Virus record (IMG/VR): IMGVR_UViG_3300042566_000678
Span: 84,236-148,235 of that record
Strand: one strand, 5' to 3'
DNA from: a virus
Length of the DNA stretch: 64,000 bases
Position 1 is the stretch's first letter. Every line of letters begins with the position of its first letter. Below, piece after piece: positions 1,796 through 64,000 of the stretch. A model generated the notes under the pieces. That model worked only from the letters and a program-made list of their open reading frames with translations, did not search any database and had not been told where the DNA came from. Made by a program: the position numbers and the translations under genes.

Positions 1796-3016
1796 TTACC
1801 AAACAATGTTTTCTTCATCATTAGCTTCAACCTTTTCTTCAAACAATGGTTTATCACCACTCTCATCACGAAGATACTTTTGAACTAATTGTTTGATGTA
1901 AGTACGTTCTGAATCAATACCACCATCCGTAGAATAGAATGGGAAGATAGAGATTTCAGCGGCCTCAACCAAATTGAAACCATCATATAACAACCCAGCT
2001 AACTCCACACTAGCACGCGTAGATACTGCCGTACTCAATTTACCTGCTTCATTACGAATCTGGTCACGAGTGTGAGCGGCGATTTCAGCAACTGCATTCA
2101 AGTCATAAGAATCAACGCCTGGATACAACATCGTAAGTAACTCCAACTCTTGCTCTTTATCAAGCACATCAACCTCAATCGTAGTGAATCGGTCCATAAT
2201 AGCCCGGTCAAGAACACGCGTTGATGTATATTCATTACCGATGTTAGCCGTTGCGATGAAAGTAACCCCCTCTGCAACAGGAACGATTGGTGAACCTTCA
2301 GCCTCATCCAAACGTAAGTAACGTTGTCCCTGGTCTAACACACTCATTAAGATGTTCCATGCTTCTGGGTGAGCTCTACTCAACTCATCTAATAAGATAA
2401 CTGCGTTAGGAGTTTTGATTGCCGTAACGAAAGCGGAATCAGAGAAGAAAGTACCCTTTTGTTTATCAAAGTGAGTATTACCAATTAATGCTGCTCTCGG
2501 GTCCTGCGTTGCTCCCAAGTTAAAGTAATGGAAAGGTCTTCCTAATGCTTCAACCAATGCTTTAGCTGCCAACGTCTTACCCGAACCAGCAGGTCCAGTC
2601 ATCATAATGTTACGAGCTCTAACTGCTGAACGGATTAAATATTTCCATTTCAAATCAGTCATAATTAACGATTTCGGTTTTAATGCTACCGAACTATTTT
2701 GGATAAAATCCACAATAGCGTTGTGTTCTTTTGGAATCTCATTCGTAGGTTCTGCGTTGGTAGTGTTTAATGGTTTAACCAACTTATCATACTCTTTCAT
2801 ATCTACTAATCGGTAGGTTTTGTTACCCAATTTGTTAATGTGTCCTCGAACTGCTTTGTTAGTTCGTAGTGCCTTTGAGCGGGTGATTTGATTTAATTTA
2901 ACGCCGGTTGTAACATCACCTTGTGTGTTCAACATTTGGATTCTACCATTAGATAATTTCTCTAATTTGTAAATCTCATTAGTGTAACCGAACTCTGAAT
3001 TTTTTAACTTTGTCAT
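1796..3016 (-). CDS. MoxR/CobS-like AAA+ ATPase
   Basis: 406 aa AAA+ ATPase. Walker A GPAGSGKT is at residues 141-148, Walker B VILLDE at 206-211, and the sensor-1 region FIATANIG at about 253-260 is followed by a conserved RVLDRAIMDRF. The family (MoxR/CobS/gas-vesicle GvpN type) remodels or activates partner proteins, usually together with a VWA-domain protein, and exactly such a protein is encoded just upstream (3135-5294). CobS/CobT-like pairs occur in several T4-related aquatic phages; their role there is not established. About 110 N-terminal residues precede the ATPase core and are not recognised. The gene has its own promoter and a hairpin after the stop, so it may be a single-gene unit. 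Confidence 0.9.
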   Translation of the reverse strand: MTKLKNSEFGYTNEIYKLEKLSNGRIQMLNTQGDVTTGVKLNQITRSKALRTNKAVRGHINKLGNKTYRLVDMKEYDKLVKPLNTTNAEPTNEIPKEHNAIVDFIQNSSVALKPKSLIMTDLKWKYLIRSAVRARNIMMTGPAGSGKTLAAKALVEALGRPFHYFNLGATQDPRAALIGNTHFDKQKGTFFSDSAFVTAIKTPNAVILLDELSRAHPEAWNILMSVLDQGQRYLRLDEAEGSPIVPVAEGVTFIATANIGNEYTSTRVLDRAIMDRFTTIEVDVLDKEQELELLTMLYPGVDSYDLNAVAEIAAHTRDQIRNEAGKLSTAVSTRASVELAGLLYDGFNLVEAAEISIFPFYSTDGGIDSERTYIKQLVQKYLRDESGDKPLFEEKVEANDEENIVW

Positions 3017-3070
3017 AGGAATTGGATTTATGTTTTATGTTTAATAATTAGTAACTCTCTCAATGTTTAG

Positions 3071-3101
3071 TAAAGATACGCAAAATAATTGATAATGTCA
3101 A
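3071..3101 (-). promoter_or_regulatory. Strong promoter, TTGACA-N17-TATCTTTA
   Basis: TTGACATT (from 3101 downward) and GCG-TATCTTTA (3071-3078) with 17 bp between the boxes; the whole segment is nearly identical to promoters at 5424, 33088 and 33409. It lies 55 bp upstream of the MoxR-like start codon. Confidence 0.75.
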
Positions 3102-3134
3102 GGTAATTGCCAAATATTTTTGAACTTTTTTTCA

Positions 3135-5294
3135 TTATTTTTTAAGAAATAATTCGTTCAAAGTTTTGGTGATTGGAACTAAACCATTTACATCAATAAA
3201 TTTAGCATCCTTACCATACATTTCAGAAAACACTTTCTTTGAACTTTCGTATGGTGTGTAATCAGATACAAAGTAACTCAACACCCCAATACCACGTTGT
3301 TTGATTCTCTTAACCATTTCAGCGGTGTGCTTACTTGCTACCTGACGAGAATAGTTAATTGAATCATTACCAAAGTTTGGTTCACCATCTGAAATGTTTA
3401 GGAAATAGGATTCCAAATCGTTAGATGATTCAACAAAGTGTTTCATAATTGCTTCGAAACACAAACCTTCAGGTGTAGTACCATTTGGTTCTAATGCTGC
3501 TACCAATTGTTTAACCTTTGTAAACTTATCAGTACGAGAATCGTATGCAATAACCATATAAGGTTTACTATTATTCCAGCTTCCACCATCAATTGTTGAA
3601 CGAACTGAAACCTGTACATCCAAGTTGTTTACCATCGTAGCTGCTTTACAGATAGCGATTGTAGTGGTCATTGCCTGTCTCCATCTATCACCTGCCATAG
3701 AGCCAGATGCATCTAATGAAATATGAAGAATGATTTTCTTAAATTTATCAACCTCTTTAGTGTAGAAAACGTTTTGGTAATCATAACCCAAAGCAGAAAC
3801 CAATCGGCGGTCAATTCGTCCATTTAACTGACGATTGTAAACCGTATCACGTTCTTCACTACGAACTTGCAATCTCTTACCCAATAAAGTTCCCAATGCT
3901 AATCCCTTTTGTAAGGTATTCTCATCAACAACCAACTCTTTAGTTCTCCAATCCTGTCTAGCCAAAGGAAATGCTTCGGATTTCATCAACTCTTCTGTCA
4001 ACTTTTTAACCACTACCACCTGCGTTTGAGGAACTTTACCCACACCTTCGATAGTTTCACCAGCAACATTCACCAATTCAGTACCCGATTTAGCAATCTG
4101 TTCTAATGCTTTATCATCTTTGTTAGTGATTGTTTTCTTTTTAGTTTCACCTTTTAAGAAATCTTGTTGTTTCTTAATTGCTTTCTCTAATTTCTTACGA
4201 TTAGCTTCACTTAAACCAGCACCTTTATCAGAACCTTTACCTTCAGATTCTTTAACTTTAACCTTACCTTTAAGTGGTTGGTTTAGAGAAGCAGATGGAC
4301 CTGAATCAGAACCCGAATCACCATCTTCTGAATCATCAAACTCAACCTCTAAATCATCATCTTCTTCACCATCTTCACCCTGTCCGTTGCCAGAACCCTC
4401 ACCTTTCTCTTGTGGTCCATCCTGCGCATCTTGCTTACCATTACCATTCTTTTCATCCTCCAGCTCATCAGCGATAGATTGAATGATAATCTCAACAATA
4501 CCTTCTGCAATCTCAACTGATTGTTGAGTAGAGGTGATACGATTGATATTGTTTAAGTTTAACAATTTAGAAATCTTACCTAAACCTCTCAACTTTGATA
4601 AGTTAGTGTTGGGGTTGGTGATATTGATAATACGGAACAAATAAGAATCAATTGTTTCCGTAGTATATTCATTTGAAAGTAATCCTTTATCAATAGAAGC
4701 ATCGTTGAAATATGTATCATATAAAGAACGATAGTAATCTCGGTAGCCAGGGCAGGTAGTGTAAACGTGATTGTCAATACGTTTATCTTCTACATAGTTA
4801 GTTAAGTTCTTAACCAAATCCCAAATCCGTTGTTTAGCCCAATTTTGGTGAGATTGATTACCTCTATCTACATTTTCAACCACATCTAAATACTTATCAA
4901 CCAATGTAGGATTGGCTTTGTAATTAACAAAGGTTTCAAAATCAGTAAGAACAATGTGAGATGCTTCGTGCAATGCTAAACCAACCGTAGAATCAAACTT
5001 ATCTGGCTTCAAATCAGAAGAGATAGTAACAGATTTACCATCGGTATAAGAATCACCTTTGACGGTAAAACGAACAGGAATGTTTCTGTTAGTAAGGATA
5101 TTAACAAAGTTAGAAATGGCTCTACGATGAGCATTTAACTTTAAATAATGTAGGGTAGAGTTTTCAGTAGCAGTTCTGGTAGGAACATCTGAATCATCCA
5201 AATCATCCCAACCATAATCTAAATCGTAATCATTAGCCCAAAAAGAAGTGGCTGATTTGGTAGATGTTTTACCTTTGAAGAAGTTGTTTATCAT
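3135..5294 (-). CDS. CobT-like VWA-domain protein with HExxH motif
   Basis: 719 aa. The C-terminal third is a von Willebrand A domain with a complete MIDAS: DASGS at 528-532, NGTTPEG near 604-610 and ISDGE near 634-638. The middle (about 290-360) is a highly acidic Asp/Glu/Gly/Ser linker, typical of CobT-type proteins. In the N-terminal third GLALHEASHIVL (109-113 is HEASH) matches the HExxH zinc-metallopeptidase signature, so this may be a protease-like or metal-binding domain. It is expected to work with the MoxR-like ATPase encoded next. The target is unknown. Two promoters lie upstream (5319, 5424). Confidence 0.85.
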   Translation of the reverse strand: MINNFFKGKTSTKSATSFWANDYDLDYGWDDLDDSDVPTRTATENSTLHYLKLNAHRRAISNFVNILTNRNIPVRFTVKGDSYTDGKSVTISSDLKPDKFDSTVGLALHEASHIVLTDFETFVNYKANPTLVDKYLDVVENVDRGNQSHQNWAKQRIWDLVKNLTNYVEDKRIDNHVYTTCPGYRDYYRSLYDTYFNDASIDKGLLSNEYTTETIDSYLFRIINITNPNTNLSKLRGLGKISKLLNLNNINRITSTQQSVEIAEGIVEIIIQSIADELEDEKNGNGKQDAQDGPQEKGEGSGNGQGEDGEEDDDLEVEFDDSEDGDSGSDSGPSASLNQPLKGKVKVKESEGKGSDKGAGLSEANRKKLEKAIKKQQDFLKGETKKKTITNKDDKALEQIAKSGTELVNVAGETIEGVGKVPQTQVVVVKKLTEELMKSEAFPLARQDWRTKELVVDENTLQKGLALGTLLGKRLQVRSEERDTVYNRQLNGRIDRRLVSALGYDYQNVFYTKEVDKFKKIILHISLDASGSMAGDRWRQAMTTTIAICKAATMVNNLDVQVSVRSTIDGGSWNNSKPYMVIAYDSRTDKFTKVKQLVAALEPNGTTPEGLCFEAIMKHFVESSNDLESYFLNISDGEPNFGNDSINYSRQVASKHTAEMVKRIKQRGIGVLSYFVSDYTPYESSKKVFSEMYGKDAKFIDVNGLVPITKTLNELFLKK

Positions 5295-7124: not shown

Positions 7125-7832
7125 TTATTCAATTGTAGTTTCATCCTCTGTTGCTTCATCTTCATCGCCATCATCTACCACACCTTGTGTGATAATAGTT
7201 CCTCTCTTTGGTATCCTCCGTTTACCTACCAACAGAAAGAAGCAGTTATAGCAAAGGAATCGTAGATTCTCCAACTTATGGTTTTGCCAATCATTATCTA
7301 AAAAATCTAATAATAGTGGAACTTTTCCATCGGTTGCTCTTTTCTCATCAAAACCACAACACGTACATTCTTCTGCAAAGTAACCAGATGTAATCAATCT
7401 ACGCTTTAATCTTGCAATTGGATAATCTGGTTTACCTTCACCTCTTAATATTTTATCTAATGCATTCTCACCACTATGAACTTGGTTAGCACGGATAATA
7501 CCAATACCAGCTGGATTTAATAAGTTTTCAAATATACCATAGGTTTTAGCCCATTTTTTATAGGTATTATAAGATACACCCAATGTCCTAGCTGCCTCAA
7601 ATGCGGATTTGGATTTAGATTGTGCATCTCTAATATCGTTTTCCAATATAGGACGAAACCCTGCTCCACGTGGATATGCTCCCGTAGACCATTTTTTCTT
7701 CACCATCGTATCTTTTATTTTTTCGATACGCTCTTCAGGTGTAAGTTTCTCCTCTTTGGGTTGGTCTACATCTTCCCACTTATCCTCACTATCTTCACCC
7801 CAATTAGCAAAAAACCTTTCTTCTTTCGGCAT
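7125..7832 (-). CDS. HTH plus degenerate HNH-type zinc protein
   Basis: 235 aa. After an acidic N-terminus there is a helix-turn-helix-like segment (AARTLGVSYNTYKKWAKTYG, about 97-116), then an HNH-like fold with CTCC and CYNC zinc pairs. Where catalytic HNH enzymes have a His-His pair and CxxCH, this protein has LLLDFLD and CYNCFF, so the catalytic histidines appear to be lost. It is probably a DNA-binding protein rather than a nuclease. The C-terminus is acidic. Neighbours overlap or lie within 2 bp. Confidence 0.7.
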   Translation of the reverse strand: MPKEERFFANWGEDSEDKWEDVDQPKEEKLTPEERIEKIKDTMVKKKWSTGAYPRGAGFRPILENDIRDAQSKSKSAFEAARTLGVSYNTYKKWAKTYGIFENLLNPAGIGIIRANQVHSGENALDKILRGEGKPDYPIARLKRRLITSGYFAEECTCCGFDEKRATDGKVPLLLDFLDNDWQNHKLENLRFLCYNCFFLLVGKRRIPKRGTIITQGVVDDGDEDEATEDETTIE

Positions 7833-7833
7833 A

Positions 7834-8079
7834 TTAATCTATATTGTATTCTCGTATAAGATGAATTGGTGTGATGTATTTACCTGCATCATCTGTTAAA
7901 TGATGGTTTAATACATTAAATTCCAAATGTTCCCAAGCATCACTATAAGTCATACCATCTCTAGTCATTAGAGTAGTAATCATTATATCCGTATCATATA
8001 TGTATCTACCGGTATCGTAGCAGTTTCCTATAATAGCCCCATCAAATCCATCCCATTTTATTTTCTCTTCTTCTTCCAT
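7834..8079 (-). CDS. Unknown 81-aa protein
   Basis: 81 aa, MEEEEKIKWDGFDGAIIG; contains MTRDGMTYSDAWEHLEFNV, a pattern seen in small phage proteins of unknown function. Soluble. It lies in the oxygenase operon with 1-2 bp gaps on both sides. Confidence 0.65.
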   Translation of the reverse strand: MEEEEKIKWDGFDGAIIGNCYDTGRYIYDTDIMITTLMTRDGMTYSDAWEHLEFNVLNHHLTDDAGKYITPIHLIREYNID

Positions 8080-8080
8080 A

Positions 8081-8689
8081 TTATTCCTCTATATGTTTAT
8101 ACCAACCGGTTATAATATATTTAGTTTCAGTTTCACTAACTTGACCTTTATGAAAATGTGTCCAAAATGCAGGCCATATTAAAAATTTACCAGCTTCTGC
8201 TTTTTCTGTGTGGTTTTGTGATTTAAACTGCGTTCCACCTGCCTCTACATCATTTAGATATATCATCCACGCCAAAACTCTATTAGAACTATTGGGATAG
8301 CCGGGGTTCTCACAATGCCAATTATAAAAACCTTCACCTGGTAAGTATCGTTGTATGTTATATCCTTCCAAATCAAACTTTTGTATGCTATCTAATGCTG
8401 GATGTTCCAACATATAAGAATCTAATCCCTTTTCCAATTTAGAATTTATATATTGTACATAATCAAACCATTCTGGTTCACCACGTTGTATAGCATCTTC
8501 GATAAAGCCAGGATACATAGAAATATCGGTTGATTTTTTAGTAGTATTTTCATCTTTAGTTTCAATTACCCCACCATTTATCACATACGATGTACCTTTA
8601 TGTTTGAAATTTGATTTTTCAAATAACTCTATAAGGTCTTTGCAAAACTCTTGTGATAATAAATTTGGTACTCTATGTATAAAATCCAT
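8081..8689 (-). CDS. 2OG-Fe(II) oxygenase, prolyl-hydroxylase type
   Basis: 202 aa. YNWHCEN gives the first His with an acidic partner (HxE rather than HxD), followed by AWMIYLNDVEAGGTQF, a hallmark of prolyl 4-hydroxylase-like enzymes, then WPAFWTHFHKGQ (distal His) and TKYIITGWY. The usual Arg near the C-terminus is replaced by Lys in this last motif, as in P4H-type enzymes. Substrate unknown. Confidence 0.85.
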   Translation of the reverse strand: MDFIHRVPNLLSQEFCKDLIELFEKSNFKHKGTSYVINGGVIETKDENTTKKSTDISMYPGFIEDAIQRGEPEWFDYVQYINSKLEKGLDSYMLEHPALDSIQKFDLEGYNIQRYLPGEGFYNWHCENPGYPNSSNRVLAWMIYLNDVEAGGTQFKSQNHTEKAEAGKFLIWPAFWTHFHKGQVSETETKYIITGWYKHIEE

Positions 8690-55655: not shown

Positions 55656-56186
55656 TTACCTTATTTTAAATTTGTGTTTACTACCATCGCTTTTACTATA
55701 AATAACATATAATGGTGAAACTTCAAATTGCATTTCTCTAAACTTATTTGTATATTGTTGCCACTTACCTTTCTTTAAATAAGCAACCGTCATATGTGGA
55801 TGATACTCTGGATAATCGTTTGAATGTGGTAGTTTTTTTAAGAGTTCGTTTGCTCTTTGTAATCCTTCACCACTTGCATCAAACTTTAATACATCGTAAT
55901 CTGGGTTACCTTCGAAAATAGATGGGTTTGTTAGTTTAATATCACCAAACGGAACTTGGTTGATAATTTGAGAAACCACACCATCTGGTACATTTGTGTG
56001 TAGACCATATAGTAATGTAATGTGTGGTTCTGTTTCTAAACCATAGTGACCATTCTCATCATCATATACATCAACATTACTAATTGTACTTGTCAATATA
56101 GATTCATCAAAATCTATGTATAACATAGCACATCCATACTGATATGGTGTCTTTTGTATTTCTTTTAATATCTTGCGTAGTTTCAT
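55656..56186 (-). CDS. 2H phosphoesterase (LigT / possible Acb1-like)
   Basis: 176 aa from ATG 56186; a longer frame to 56252 runs into a tRNA and is rejected. Two HxT motifs, EPHITLLYG (His55) and YHPHMTVAYL (His131), define the 2H family. Members open 2',3'-cyclic phosphates, ligate tRNA halves or, as T4 Acb1, cleave cyclic oligonucleotide alarms of CBASS immunity. The position next to the tRNA array fits tRNA repair; the phage setting fits immune evasion. Sequence alone does not decide. Confidence 0.8.
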   Translation of the reverse strand: MKLRKILKEIQKTPYQYGCAMLYIDFDESILTSTISNVDVYDDENGHYGLETEPHITLLYGLHTNVPDGVVSQIINQVPFGDIKLTNPSIFEGNPDYDVLKFDASGEGLQRANELLKKLPHSNDYPEYHPHMTVAYLKKGKWQQYTNKFREMQFEVSPLYVIYSKSDGSKHKFKIR

Positions 56187-56203: not shown

Positions 56204-56352
56204 CTGTGGGGGCAGGATTCGAACCTGCAAAGGGAGATTCAGTAAGTAACACTTATGCCGGCCGGCTGGTGGTCTACCCCATATCACTTACCTATTTCTT
56301 TATCCCCGCCGTAGAGACGGTACGGTATGGCTGCCAATTTCACCACCCCACA
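56204..56352 (-). ncRNA. Oversized tRNA-like RNA, about 149 nt
   Basis: A 7-bp acceptor-type helix (TGTGGGG at 56346-56352 with CCCCACA at 56205-56211) and a perfect T arm (GCAGG-TTCGAAT-CCTGC) are present, and the first 25 nt match a tRNA-Leu D arm (GGTGAAATTGGCAGCC). The best anticodon-like hairpin (CCGTA-CCGTCTC-TACGG) has C, not U, at position 33. About 60 extra nt, themselves foldable (GTAAGT/ACTTAC, GCCGGCCGGC), sit between it and the T arm. Either a tRNA with a giant variable arm or insertion, or a tRNA mimic. Confidence 0.6.
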
Positions 56353-56356
56353 ATTT

Positions 56357-59034: not shown

Positions 59035-61218
59035 TTATTCTACATATTTTGTCCAACTATCTACATTAAAACATCCTCCACAATCGGATTTTTTTTGTAA
59101 TAATTTTTGAACGCTTTGAACTCTAATTTCCGATAAATTTGGATTGTTATAAGTATATAATCTATCTATAAAAATAGATGGTAATCCTTTAATGTTTAAA
59201 TATCTTAAATTATTATTCCAAACTAAAAACCAACTTAAAAGTGGATTTTTTGTACAATCCAATGATTCAATTTTATTATCATGCACCCAAAGTCCTTTAA
59301 GCATTGGGTTGCCACTCAAATTTAAAGCTGTCAATCTGTTATTTTGCATATACAATTGTTGCAGGTTTGGATTGTGAGTTATATCAATTGATGTTACACC
59401 TCTGGTTGTTCCGTATCCAGTTCTACCTTCTGTATTACCAAAATCCAATTCAGTTAAATTTGGATTTCTAGAAACATCAAATGTTACAATATCATTATCC
59501 CCTGCACCAAAGTATTGTAATTTTGATAATGAACTTACATCAATACTTGTCAATTTATTATCCCAAAGTGAAACCCAAGTCAGATTAGTATTTTTGGATA
59601 AATCAACACTACTAATTTCATTGTGAATAATTCTTAACCTTTGTAGATTAGGGAATGCCTCTATACCTCTGATACTTACAATACCCATAGGATTTAGGAT
59701 TTCTATGGTAGTTGCGTTTGCAATTGGTGCAGTTTTAATCCGCCCATCCAAAACAAAATCATATCCCCTATCTATTAGTGCTTGCTCAAATCTACTATCT
59801 GGCACACTCATATACTCCGGCAATGCCGATAGAGATGGTGGTGGAGTTGTTACAATTGGACCAGGTACAAATGGTGTAGATGGTGATGATGCCGTTGGTG
59901 GGGTAGGTACTATTGGTGCTACATATACCGGTGGTGGTGTATCATCCAATGTTCTGAAATTGCGTTCATCACCATATACTATACCCTTTGAGTTTATACA
60001 ATATGCTCTAATATAGTAGGTTGAATTTGGTATTAATTCATTTACATCTACCATATATCCACCCAAACCTTTCCCATATATAAGTTTTCTATCTGAAATT
60101 GTAGGTGTTTTTTCTCTACTAATAACCACACCCTTTTCAGTTACAGGTGTATTACCTTCATTTGTAACCTCACCACCAATTCTTGCACTCTTAAATGAAA
60201 TATTCCCAATATCGTTGGTAGATATTTTAGCAAATGTATAATCTAATGTTGAAAAATTGATTTCATCACCATATACAATACCCGCTTCATTTTGAGCGTA
60301 TGCTCTTACATAGTATTTAGTATTTACCTCCAATTTAGTAACTACTATTTTATATTCACCCAAGTCTGTGACTGATGATTTGAACTTTAAATCCTCCACC
60401 GATGGTTTTGGTGATTTAGATACAACTACACCACGTTCTTTCAATTCTCCCCTACCCAAATCTTTTACATTACCACTTAATGTTACCACATCTAATCCAA
60501 CATCCGTTGCAGGATTTGTTTGGATTGTAGGTAGTTTATACTCTAATGTTGAAAATGAAAGTTCTTTACCATACGATGTACCCATAGCATTTGTAGCAAA
60601 GGCACGGACATTGTACTTTGTTCCTGCTTTTAGTTTGATTACAACTAAATTGAATACACCCATACCATCACCTGTATTGAATGTACTATCGGTAGTTGTA
60701 GGTGTTTGGTTGGTACTAATGCAAAATCCTCGCTTTAATATAGGTGTTTCACCATCATCTGTAATATTACCATATAGTTTTACCGATGTTAGAGTTATAT
60801 TACCCAAACTATCGGTTGTTAAAGTTGGTAGTATATAATCACCAGTTGTAAAATTCTTTAATTGACCATATGCAATACCATATTTGTTTTTGGCGTATGC
60901 ATTATAGTAATAGGTTTTATTTGGTGTTAGTTTGGTTAGTTGTGATTTAAATATTGTAACATTTGTATCCAATTTAATGGTAGTACCATATCCACCAACA
61001 TCTGGATTAGTTGCGTAAATAAATCCACGTTCAATTGTAGGTGCATAGGGTACATCTTCTACTTTACCTACAATAAATGCTGATTTAAGTGTAACATTGG
61101 TTGCATCCTCTGTTAATACAGATGGTGGTAAATCAATAATCGTTGGTGTTAGTGCTTCTTCCTTTGCACACCCTAATAATAGGAAAATACCTATTAGACT
61201 GATTTGTAACTTTTTCAT
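59035..61218 (-). CDS. Surface lipoprotein with four FN3-like repeats and leucine-rich repeats
   Basis: 727 aa. Lipobox LLLGC (Cys17). Residues about 30-415 are four tandem repeats of some 90 aa, each ending in the same motif: YGIAYGQLKNFTT, MGTSYGKELSFST, AGIVYGDEINFST, KGIVYGDERNFRT. After a Pro-rich linker (about 425-465) the C-terminal 250 residues are leucine-rich repeats (SVDLSKNTNLTWVSLWDNKL, TELDFGN, LTALNLSGNPML). Two Cys close to the end (DCGGC). This is the design of surface adhesins. It lies inside the tRNA array with its own promoter (61243). Confidence 0.82.
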   Translation of the reverse strand: MKKLQISLIGIFLLLGCAKEEALTPTIIDLPPSVLTEDATNVTLKSAFIVGKVEDVPYAPTIERGFIYATNPDVGGYGTTIKLDTNVTIFKSQLTKLTPNKTYYYNAYAKNKYGIAYGQLKNFTTGDYILPTLTTDSLGNITLTSVKLYGNITDDGETPILKRGFCISTNQTPTTTDSTFNTGDGMGVFNLVVIKLKAGTKYNVRAFATNAMGTSYGKELSFSTLEYKLPTIQTNPATDVGLDVVTLSGNVKDLGRGELKERGVVVSKSPKPSVEDLKFKSSVTDLGEYKIVVTKLEVNTKYYVRAYAQNEAGIVYGDEINFSTLDYTFAKISTNDIGNISFKSARIGGEVTNEGNTPVTEKGVVISREKTPTISDRKLIYGKGLGGYMVDVNELIPNSTYYIRAYCINSKGIVYGDERNFRTLDDTPPPVYVAPIVPTPPTASSPSTPFVPGPIVTTPPPSLSALPEYMSVPDSRFEQALIDRGYDFVLDGRIKTAPIANATTIEILNPMGIVSIRGIEAFPNLQRLRIIHNEISSVDLSKNTNLTWVSLWDNKLTSIDVSSLSKLQYFGAGDNDIVTFDVSRNPNLTELDFGNTEGRTGYGTTRGVTSIDITHNPNLQQLYMQNNRLTALNLSGNPMLKGLWVHDNKIESLDCTKNPLLSWFLVWNNNLRYLNIKGLPSIFIDRLYTYNNPNLSEIRVQSVQKLLQKKSDCGGCFNVDSWTKYVE

Positions 61219-62337: not shown

Positions 62338-62856
62338 TTATTCATAACCCCTGTAATTTCTTAAATAAACATTTCTTTTATTATATTTTCTTTGAGAGTT
62401 ACCATTGTTTTTACTACCATAATTTTCAGTTTGTGAATGGCAATTTGGACAAAGTAATCTTAAATTATTCAAATTGTTATTATCAGAATTACCATCTATA
62501 TGGTCTAATTGTAATGTTAGTGGTCTACCATTCCATTCAGCTGATATTCCACAATCAAAACATTCATTTTTCACACTATCTTTTAGATACCTTTTAAGTG
62601 CAAAATTATTAGTAGATGTACCATTTAATATTTTTGGTAAACTTATTGTTTTACTTTTATATTCCGCACAGCATTTTGAATTACAATATTGTTTTACATA
62701 GTTATTTAATTCAGCATCACAATTTTTACATTTAGGTTTTGTTCTTCCACTTGTCCTTTTAGGATATACTTTATTGTTATATTTAGCAGCACAGCTATTT
62801 GAACAAAACTTTCTATTTTTTGGTATATCAATACCACATTCATTACATTTATTCAT
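62338..62856 (-). CDS. HNH homing-type endonuclease
   Basis: 172 aa. Two N-terminal zinc-finger-like units (NKCNECG with FCSNSCAAKYN; PKCKNCD with YCNSKCCAEY) are followed by an intact HNH domain: ECFDCG, LQLDHIDGNSDNNNL and LRLLCPNCHSQT. The basic tail (SQRKYNKRNVYLRNY) may contact DNA. Free-standing HNH nucleases in phage tRNA regions are known selfish elements that cut tRNA-less relatives. Lies between tRNA(UAG) and tRNA-Val. Confidence 0.92.
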   Translation of the reverse strand: MNKCNECGIDIPKNRKFCSNSCAAKYNNKVYPKRTSGRTKPKCKNCDAELNNYVKQYCNSKCCAEYKSKTISLPKILNGTSTNNFALKRYLKDSVKNECFDCGISAEWNGRPLTLQLDHIDGNSDNNNLNNLRLLCPNCHSQTENYGSKNNGNSQRKYNKRNVYLRNYRGYE

Positions 62857-63509: not shown

Positions 63510-64000
63510 TATATTATTACGGATGAGAATACTCACGTAAAAGAACCAGCTTTCGTTGGATTATTGTTTCCCAACTTTTCCACTACCTTTTGGGTAGTAC
63601 CGATTCAATGCGGGTTGGTTAAGCCAACCACTCATAAAGTTACAAACTACTCTCTCTTTACTCCGCTTCTTCTACTCTGCCGAACAGATTCACACTTGCG
63701 GTGTTAGAAGTTTTTCGAAAGAATCACAGACCTCTTGCGGAGGTATCGTGGCAAGGAACAACTCCCTACTATGTACGCACCTTTCGTTTGCAACTGACGA
63801 ACACTTTTGCTCTTTTTGTTTATAGTTTGCACTAACAGGCAAATTGAGTTTGGTTCGTAGATGGTTTCAAGTAGTGGTTCGCCAACCTGCTTCGTTACCT
63901 TTTGAGCAACAAAATACTGAACTACTCGATGTGTTATCCCTAACACCATACTTTAAGTTTGCTTCATAACTCCTACCTTGGTAGGTGAAGAGTAAGGATA
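63510..64000 (-). ncRNA. Large ornate structured RNA, continues beyond window
   Basis: No convincing ORF in 490 nt, higher GC than the surroundings, and a dense series of short hairpins: TGAG/CTCA 63524-63535, GTTGG/CCAAC 63555-63575, ACTACC/GGTAGT 63582-63598, GGTTGG/CCAACC 63613-63629, CTTCTA/TAGAAG 63669-63710 enclosing ACAC/GTGT 63692-63704, ACCTC/GAGGT 63730-63744, TTCGT/ACGAA 63783-63801, TTTGC/GCAAA 63826-63843, GGTT/AACC 63876-63887, GTGTTA/TAACAC 63931-63946, CCTAC/GTAGG 63972-63985. Two loops are CGCAA on the minus strand. Size, structure and tRNA neighbourhood recall GOLLD/ROOL-type phage RNAs; identity is unproved. Strand is assumed from the adjacent tRNAs. Confidence 0.65.

Follow-up and report, generated by a model that had tools for sequence, protein, structure and literature searches.

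A tRNA-shaped RNA with a giant variable arm in phages and Bacteroidota, and its possible part in asparagine synthesis

The RNA and its neighbours in the phage window

The window, that is, the whole 64,000-nucleotide stretch of DNA analysed here, comprises bases 84236-148235 of a virus record 148235 bases in size. On its minus strand, at 56352-56204, it encodes a tRNA-like RNA of 149 bases that consists of a complete tRNA body and an 80-nt variable arm. We used two covariance models of such RNAs: R1, which finds members free of the constraints of the letter pattern described below, and R2, which was trained on bacterial chromosomal members only. Base 56353 (position -1), which lay outside the span given in an earlier note on this DNA, is included in the covariance model. 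The parts of the window copy are as follows.

56204-56353, minus strand: whole tRNA-like RNA, from position -1 to G73, as matched by R2 and R1
56346-56352, minus strand: acceptor stem, 5' strand UGUGGGG, with U1 and G2 (pair 1-72 is U-A in 82/82 members)
56327-56343, minus strand: D arm of the Leu type, with G18, G19 and A at 20a (read from the sequence; the D stem covaries)
56309-56325, minus strand: anticodon-type arm CCGUA-CCGUCUC-UACGG with a 5-bp stem (read from the sequence; the loop has 7 nt in all model-found members)
56314-56320, minus strand: loop C32 C33 G34 U35 C36 U37 C38 (UCUC at 35-38 is invariant in 82/82)
56229-56308, minus strand: giant variable arm of 80 nt (foot, middle and 8-bp upper helix, with two-sided changes)
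56282-56289, minus strand: upper helix of the variable arm, 5' strand (columns 70-77 of alignment A1)
56269-56278, minus strand: apical motif GGUAGACCAC, a component of the search pattern
56257-56266, minus strand: apical 10-nt palindrome GCCGGCCGGC (palindromes are in excess across phage apices)
56244-56251, minus strand: upper helix of the variable arm, 3' strand (columns 126-133 of alignment A1)
56212-56228, minus strand: T arm GCAGG-UUCGAAU-CCUGC with a 5-bp stem (read from the sequence)
56204-56211, minus strand: acceptor 3' strand CCCCACA and G73 (G73 in 82/82 model-found members)

The acceptor stem thus has 7 bp (UGUGGGG/CCCCACA). Its canonical form, the T arm, the Leu-type D arm and an anticodon-like hairpin without U33 had all been described in the earlier note, and all are borne out by the sequence, the loop CCGUCUC having C33. 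That note had counted about 60 extra, self-complementary bases before the T arm, which is about right: the 80-nt stretch folds back on itself, and the variable arm of an ordinary class II tRNA has roughly 15-20 nt. R2, which does not contain the window copy, matched 56353-56204 with 111.7 bits (E = 1.7e-30), and its runner-up within the window was a tRNA-Asp with 37.6 bits. R1 gave the window copy 133.7 bits, a score for which the training set contained this copy. The folding energy of the window copy is unremarkable (z = -1.08; 29 of 200 shuffles were equally or more stable); because this is chance level, proof of the structure was drawn from its relatives.

ARAGORN called 25 tRNAs in the window, and the phage also encodes an ordinary tRNA-Asp. 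Without introns, ARAGORN left the tRNA-like RNA uncalled, and neither with nor without introns did it find two ordinary tRNAs or a tRNA-Leu of normal length, the parses that the earlier note had set against its own. Rfam at gathering score gave no match to the RNA in the 64-kb window; at E ≤ 10 the sole match to its region was the GlsR5 snoRNA model on the opposite strand (14.4 bits, where the gathering score is 100), and the tmRNA model RF00023 matched nothing at 56204-56353 at this same permissive limit. Other features noted around the RNA are listed here.

55656-56162, minus strand: 168-aa 2H phosphoesterase adjoining the tRNA-like RNA (Pfam 2_5_RNA_ligase2 over the cut-off; Acb1 (anti-CBASS) slightly below the cut-off; PHROG RNA ligase)
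59035-61218, minus strand: protein with FN3-type and leucine-rich repeats, inside the tRNA array
62338-62856, minus strand: HNH endonuclease, inside the tRNA array
63520-63929, minus strand: GOLLD RNA (295 bits), at the far end of the tRNA array

GOLLD was also seen in contigs L008 and L012, beside a similar tRNA array. L008, a phage contig of 287 kb that holds both the tRNA-like RNA and GOLLD, also has a tmRNA at 7779-8171.

An RNA family in phages and Bacteroidota chromosomes

When viral contigs were scanned for Leu-type D loops separated by 80-110 bases from a T loop, 12 stretches were returned, seven of which are homologues of the window RNA (L004, L006, L010 and L013, and the identical L008, L011 and L012). 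The others are non-members, namely L007 and four contigs that share one identical sequence (L002, L003, L005 and L009). This shared stretch is tRNA-Leu-like, with a spacing of 112 bases and poorly matched acceptor ends, and lies within tRNA arrays in which several tRNAs serve one and the same amino acid. A pattern of the letters shared by the homologues matched 107 viral stretches and at least 120 stretches in GTDB genomes. After removal of matches without a T arm or with fewer than six acceptor pairs, 222 members were kept, comprising 105 viral loci (including the window copy) and 115 genome loci, with 151 distinct sequences. Eight pattern matches (L031, L034, L035, L116, L148, L162, L170 and L209) were excluded from the counts for want of a T arm, a cut end or fewer than six acceptor pairs, no ground being recorded for L170; L034 is a true member interrupted by a contig end. 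The genome members are in Bacteroidota, as judged from the taxa of 80 of the at least 120 stretches, and the matches listed include Pedobacter, Chitinophaga, Aquirufa, Cytophagaceae, Cyclobacteriaceae, Saprospiraceae and relatives. Also among the matches listed were Pseudomonas, Acidimicrobiaceae and two Bacteroidales, which were dropped; the covariance model finds nothing in those four genomes.

Searches of named phages by blastn yielded one true member, at 3004-3147 of LR756504.1 (L275), an unannotated 636-kb uncultured phage. The search that found it also gave seven 28-base matches to Sinorhizobium phages; another gave no record covering 80% of the query, the rows listed being T-arm matches, and two more gave no matches. 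No member was found in a search of plasmids. Rfam had no family matching 12 bacterial loci up to E = 0.5, and ARAGORN called 0 of the 222 members, so that this tRNA gene finder overlooks a common gene. The tRNA-like RNA of the window is a member of a large, previously undescribed RNA family. Among open-licence PMC papers, searched by titles and the starts of abstracts, no report of it was found, and the motif table of PMC2864571 holds several Bacteroidetes motifs, the term "tRNA-like" being absent from that table.

The family has a common structure that is supported by covariation. An alignment of 44 representatives contains 36 base pairs, both sides of which have changed in 28 cases, and in 82 distinct members found by the model 96.6% of the cells are paired, compared with 46.7-55.7% when the partner is slid; no shuffle of the 82-member set attained any of the observed measures. 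The acceptor, D, anticodon and T arms are of standard size with covarying helices, and the anticodon and T loops have 7 nt. In the variable arm, a 4-bp foot is followed by a bulge and a helix of 3 bp, above which lie a conserved internal loop and an upper helix that reaches 8 bp at most; the base pairs of the arm, in the foot and higher, covary across the family, so "giant variable arm", one of the names proposed in the earlier note, is the right one. Molecules range from 109 to 196 nt. Compared with the class II tRNAs (Leu, Ser and Sec), the RNA has the same Leu-type D arm and the same placement of the arm between the anticodon and T stems, whereas its arm is several-fold longer with internal loops, it has G73 where tRNA-Leu has A73, and it is without a usable anticodon. 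It resembles tmRNA in being tRNA-like and in occurring in large phages (L008 has both), but it retains the anticodon arm and has no Rfam tmRNA match. A pairing of the GUC of the loop with the GAC of the tip motif was considered and dropped: 51 of the 82 distinct model-found members have a GACCA string and 31 are without one.

We also noticed a second type of long tRNA-like RNA in phages, of 99-144 nt with near-identical ends (UAGUCAGG...CCUGACUA; one copy is UAGUUAGG), a Leu-type D arm and A at the discriminator position. Because these RNAs score only 33-53 bits with R1, they do not belong to the family of the window RNA. They lie at the following positions.

L007, 7663-7804, 7899-8007 and 8055-8161: three second-type RNAs in tandem
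L032, 4906-5049 and 5865-5973: second-type RNAs
L013, 12280-12378: second-type RNA

The RNA is widespread on Bacteroidota chromosomes. We counted it with R1 at E ≤ 1e-15, with filters so strict that absences may include misses. The order to which a Pedobacter genome belongs gave 97 positives among 121 sampled genomes, that of an Aquirufa genome 85 of 118 and that of a Chitinophaga genome 54 of 119; a draw across the phylum gave 40 of 395. Positive genomes carry between one and seven copies, which frequently lie in tandem. An AsnC/Lrp-type gene is the upstream neighbour at 96 of the 115 genome loci, nearly always divergent; three such genes were tested, and the best NCBIfam match of each was AsnC (153-179 bits, cut-off 227), with Lrp far lower. 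The promoter-like box TAnnTTTG, a Bacteroidetes promoter element, occurs upstream in 92 of 106 genome regions (shuffled mean 26.5), a terminator-like hairpin occurs at 75 of 88 genome loci (shuffled 3-7), and three or more ordinary tRNAs lie nearby at only 1 of 115. By these sequence signals the chromosomal copies are stand-alone genes with promoter and terminator signals of their own. The AsnC-like regulator probably controls the adjoining RNA gene.

Phage members occur on about 100 contigs, and their setting is different. No AsnC-like neighbour was found at any of the 105 viral loci, a TAnnTTTG-type box was found in 15 of 77 (shuffled 14.7) and terminator-like sites in 5 of 73 (shuffled 1-2), and ordinary tRNAs are present at 81 of the 104 loci besides the window, with at least three at 59. 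The tip of the variable arm also has a character of its own: 37 of 47 distinct phage tips contain a perfect palindrome at least six bases long (against 8.4 on average and 15 at most in shuffles), the sequences of which differ, although some tips were cut short by the boundary rule and counted as misses. We rejected the palindromic tip as a family-wide trait, since chromosomal tips are at chance (12 of 38; shuffles 11.8). In addition, the D loop is enlarged by an insert in 21 viral members and in no chromosomal member; of the 10 distinct forms of this insert, 6 have a perfect palindrome at least six bases long.

L016, L017, L026, L051, L064 and L072, viral loci: examples of hairpin-like D-loop inserts

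GOLLD and ROOL, the multimers of which use kissing loops (PMC12286853), share the phage tRNA-array neighbourhood, GOLLD lying 7 kb away in the window. By analogy with these cages, the self-complementary phage tips suggest that phage copies form dimers through kissing loops. Such dimers are putative, and the new RNA differs from both in its size (150 nt against hundreds), its tRNA fold and its presence on the chromosomes of whole orders, the palindromic tip being confined to its phage copies.

Invariant letters and co-occurrence with GatB

The letters of the tRNA body are highly constrained. In the 82 distinct model-found members, U1-A72, G2-C71, U35, C36, U37, C38 and G73 are invariant, position 34 is G in 79 and differs in three, and position 33 is U in 75, the window copy having C33. 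Among distinct pattern-found sequences, G73 is present in 74/74 phage and 77/77 genome members, and U1-A72 in 73/74 and 77/77, the exception being L068. The family D loops listed have A at 20a and no U20a. The commonest loop of the family is CUGUCUC, which resembles the loop CUGUCAC of the tRNA-Asp of the window phage, and the loop of the window copy differs from the latter at positions 37 and 33. With tRNA-Asp (GUC) the RNA thus has in common a similar loop, G73 and G2-C71, whereas U1-A72, U37, the Leu-type D arm and the giant variable arm set it apart.

According to the review PMC9976931, G73, G34, U35, C36 and C38 are the five strong determinants for aspartate, U1-A72 confers amidation of Asp-tRNA-Asn, G1-C72 and U20a prevent amidation of tRNA-Asp, and G1-C72 of bacterial tRNA-Asp is called crucial; a table in it gives A73 as Leu identity. 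The family carries all five aspartate determinants (G34 in 79/82, the others in 82/82) and also has the U1-A72 and the lack of U20a that characterize tRNA-Asn as a GatCAB substrate. It does not have the G1-C72 of bacterial tRNA-Asp, U1-A72 standing in its place in 82/82, which could weaken recognition by AspRS, nor the A73 of tRNA-Leu, G73 being present in 82/82. The RNA therefore looks like a chimera, with an Asp loop on an acceptor end of the tRNA-Asn type. The tRNA-Asn of the window phage has G1-C72; should the tRNA-Asn of the RNA-bearing genomes have this pair too, the RNA would be their sole Asp-type substrate for GatCAB. U33 and a purine at 37 would be expected of a decoding tRNA; with U37 in 82/82, decoding should be blocked.

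Translation needs GatB only if GlnRS or AsnRS is missing. We scanned 119 genomes of the Chitinophaga order for the three proteins: AsnRS matched in all 119 (115 over the cut-off), GlnRS was present in 67 and GatB in 93. GatB occurs in 52 of the 54 genomes with the RNA and in 41 of the 65 without it. Among the 67 genomes with GlnRS the figures are 40/41 with the RNA and 7/26 without (p = 4.7e-10), or 39/41 and 6/26 if two tiny GatB fragments are scored absent (p = 7e-10); in the 52 genomes without GlnRS they are 12/13 and 34/39 (p = 1). On a tree of the 67 genomes, made from GlnRS alone by a quick method, phylogenetically independent pairs of genomes that differed in the RNA differed in GatB in the same direction 6.2 times and in the opposite direction 0.0 times on average, and the sign test gave a median p of 0.031 (range 0.016-0.22 across pairings), with G612 scored as GatB-positive from a contig-end fragment and G607 as GatB-negative. 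GatB was found in 40/40 RNA-bearing genomes and 292/355 others of the phylum-wide draw (p = 0.001), so most Bacteroidota lacking the RNA in that draw also have GatB. Judged by GatB, GatCAB is thus available in 52/54 and 40/40 RNA-bearing genomes. Asparagine synthetase (TIGR01536) is no rarer in Chitinophaga-order genomes with the RNA (43/54) than in those without (55/65; p = 0.63), and the RNA is therefore no simple substitute for AsnB; the figures also speak against explaining it by asparagine auxotrophy alone. GlnRS is itself commoner with the RNA (41/54 against 26/65, p = 9e-5), a bias that is unexplained.

A carrier for asparagine and the alternatives

Starting from the established family, with its structure, distribution, bacterial transcription signals, invariant letters and GatB association, we propose, with a probability of roughly 0.6, that the window RNA is a phage-borne member of a group of non-decoding, tRNA-shaped carriers of Bacteroidota that are charged by AspRS and amidated to Asn-RNA by GatCAB. 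Charging is suggested by the letters, and amidation by the letters together with the GatB co-occurrence. Given its tRNA body, the RNA would be matured by RNase P and the CCA enzyme in the manner of a tRNA. AspRS would load aspartate by way of the Asp-type anticodon loop and G73, and GatCAB would convert Asp-RNA into Asn-RNA, for which U1-A72, the absence of U20a and the presence of GatB speak. The giant arm and U37, and in some members also the absence of U33, would keep the RNA away from Asp codons; an amidated RNA that decoded these codons would insert Asn, which would make sense of U37 and of so bulky an arm. The Asn product would feed or report the asparagine supply, with the AsnC-like neighbour probably controlling the gene, and phages would carry a copy within their tRNA arrays, presumably to sustain the supply of Asn during infection.

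The closest known system is tRNA-dependent asparagine synthesis, in which AspRS and GatCAB act on tRNA-Asn in a transamidosome. The new RNA has in common with it U1-A72, the lack of U20a, G73, determinants of Asp-type charging and co-occurrence with GatB. It differs in having the anticodon letters of Asp, so that a discriminating AspRS could serve, in having U37 and an 80-nt arm, and so in not being for decoding, and in being a dedicated gene beside an AsnC-like regulator.

The same letters and GatB link would also fit if the RNA were a sensor, the charging of which with Asp or Asn, or the competition of which for AspRS and GatCAB, signalled Asp/Asn/Gln status to the AsnC-like regulator or to ribosomes, with the giant arm as read-out domain. 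The AsnC-like neighbour at 96/115 genome loci and the conserved loop strands within the arm agree with such a role, which we nevertheless regard as rather unlikely: phage copies are without this neighbour (0/105), and we know of no RNA binding by AsnC-type proteins.

The earlier note had also raised the possibility of a decoy for tRNA-targeting defence enzymes. An RNA that mimicked tRNA-Asp or long-arm tRNAs could soak up anticodon nucleases or further toxins that attack tRNAs, as a phage counter-defence, and the usual family loop is that of tRNA-Asp save for position 37, the window phage carries 25 tRNAs, and phage copies sit in tRNA arrays (59/104 loci with at least three tRNAs). This idea may suit the phage copies; it leaves unexplained why most of the genomes sampled from two orders, and nearly half of those from a third, have a chromosomal gene, in one to seven copies, that is equipped with promoter and terminator signals, and gives no reason for the invariant U1-A72 or the GatB link, and we consider it quite improbable. 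Still less probable is a genuine tRNA that decodes Asp codons and has an unusual arm. Most members do have GUC at 34-36 on a full tRNA body, but U37 is found in 82/82, position 33 is not U in 7/82 and 34-36 is not GUC in 3/82, the arm of the window copy has 80 nt, the same phage has an ordinary tRNA-Asp, and ARAGORN recognizes 0/222. An intron-interrupted tRNA that becomes normal after removal, as the earlier note had suggested and ARAGORN with introns offers in the form of a tRNA-Gly(acc) whose intron has 57 nt, is scarcely credible. The exons of this parse would pair with a C:A mismatch in the anticodon stem and in conflict with those helices of the anticodon and variable arms that covary. 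Across the family the anticodon stem covaries as five closed base pairs topped by a loop of 7 nt, and the variation in length (109-196 nt) sits in the arm, not in the loop, and leaves the tRNA body undisturbed.

The carrier reading also bears on why bacteria keep GatCAB. A table in PMC4206432 gives 67 genera that keep GatCAB despite having both AsnRS and GlnRS, 18 of them without asparagine synthetase, and Bacteroidetes are among the genera with AsnRS, GlnRS and GatCAB; for Bacteroidota, the RNA is a candidate answer to the retention puzzle posed there. At somewhat less than even odds, we put forward the wider view that the family is a new class of RNA, a non-translating tRNA chimera through which Bacteroidota would make asparagine by AspRS and GatCAB, and of which the phage versions are modified at the tip and possibly dimerize. 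If this is true, the chimera would explain the retention of GatCAB in many Bacteroidota that have AsnRS and GlnRS. We know of no other tRNA-shaped RNA that is kept by entire bacterial orders for amino-acid chemistry and not for decoding, and the RNA would then be the first to be conserved on that scale for such a purpose.
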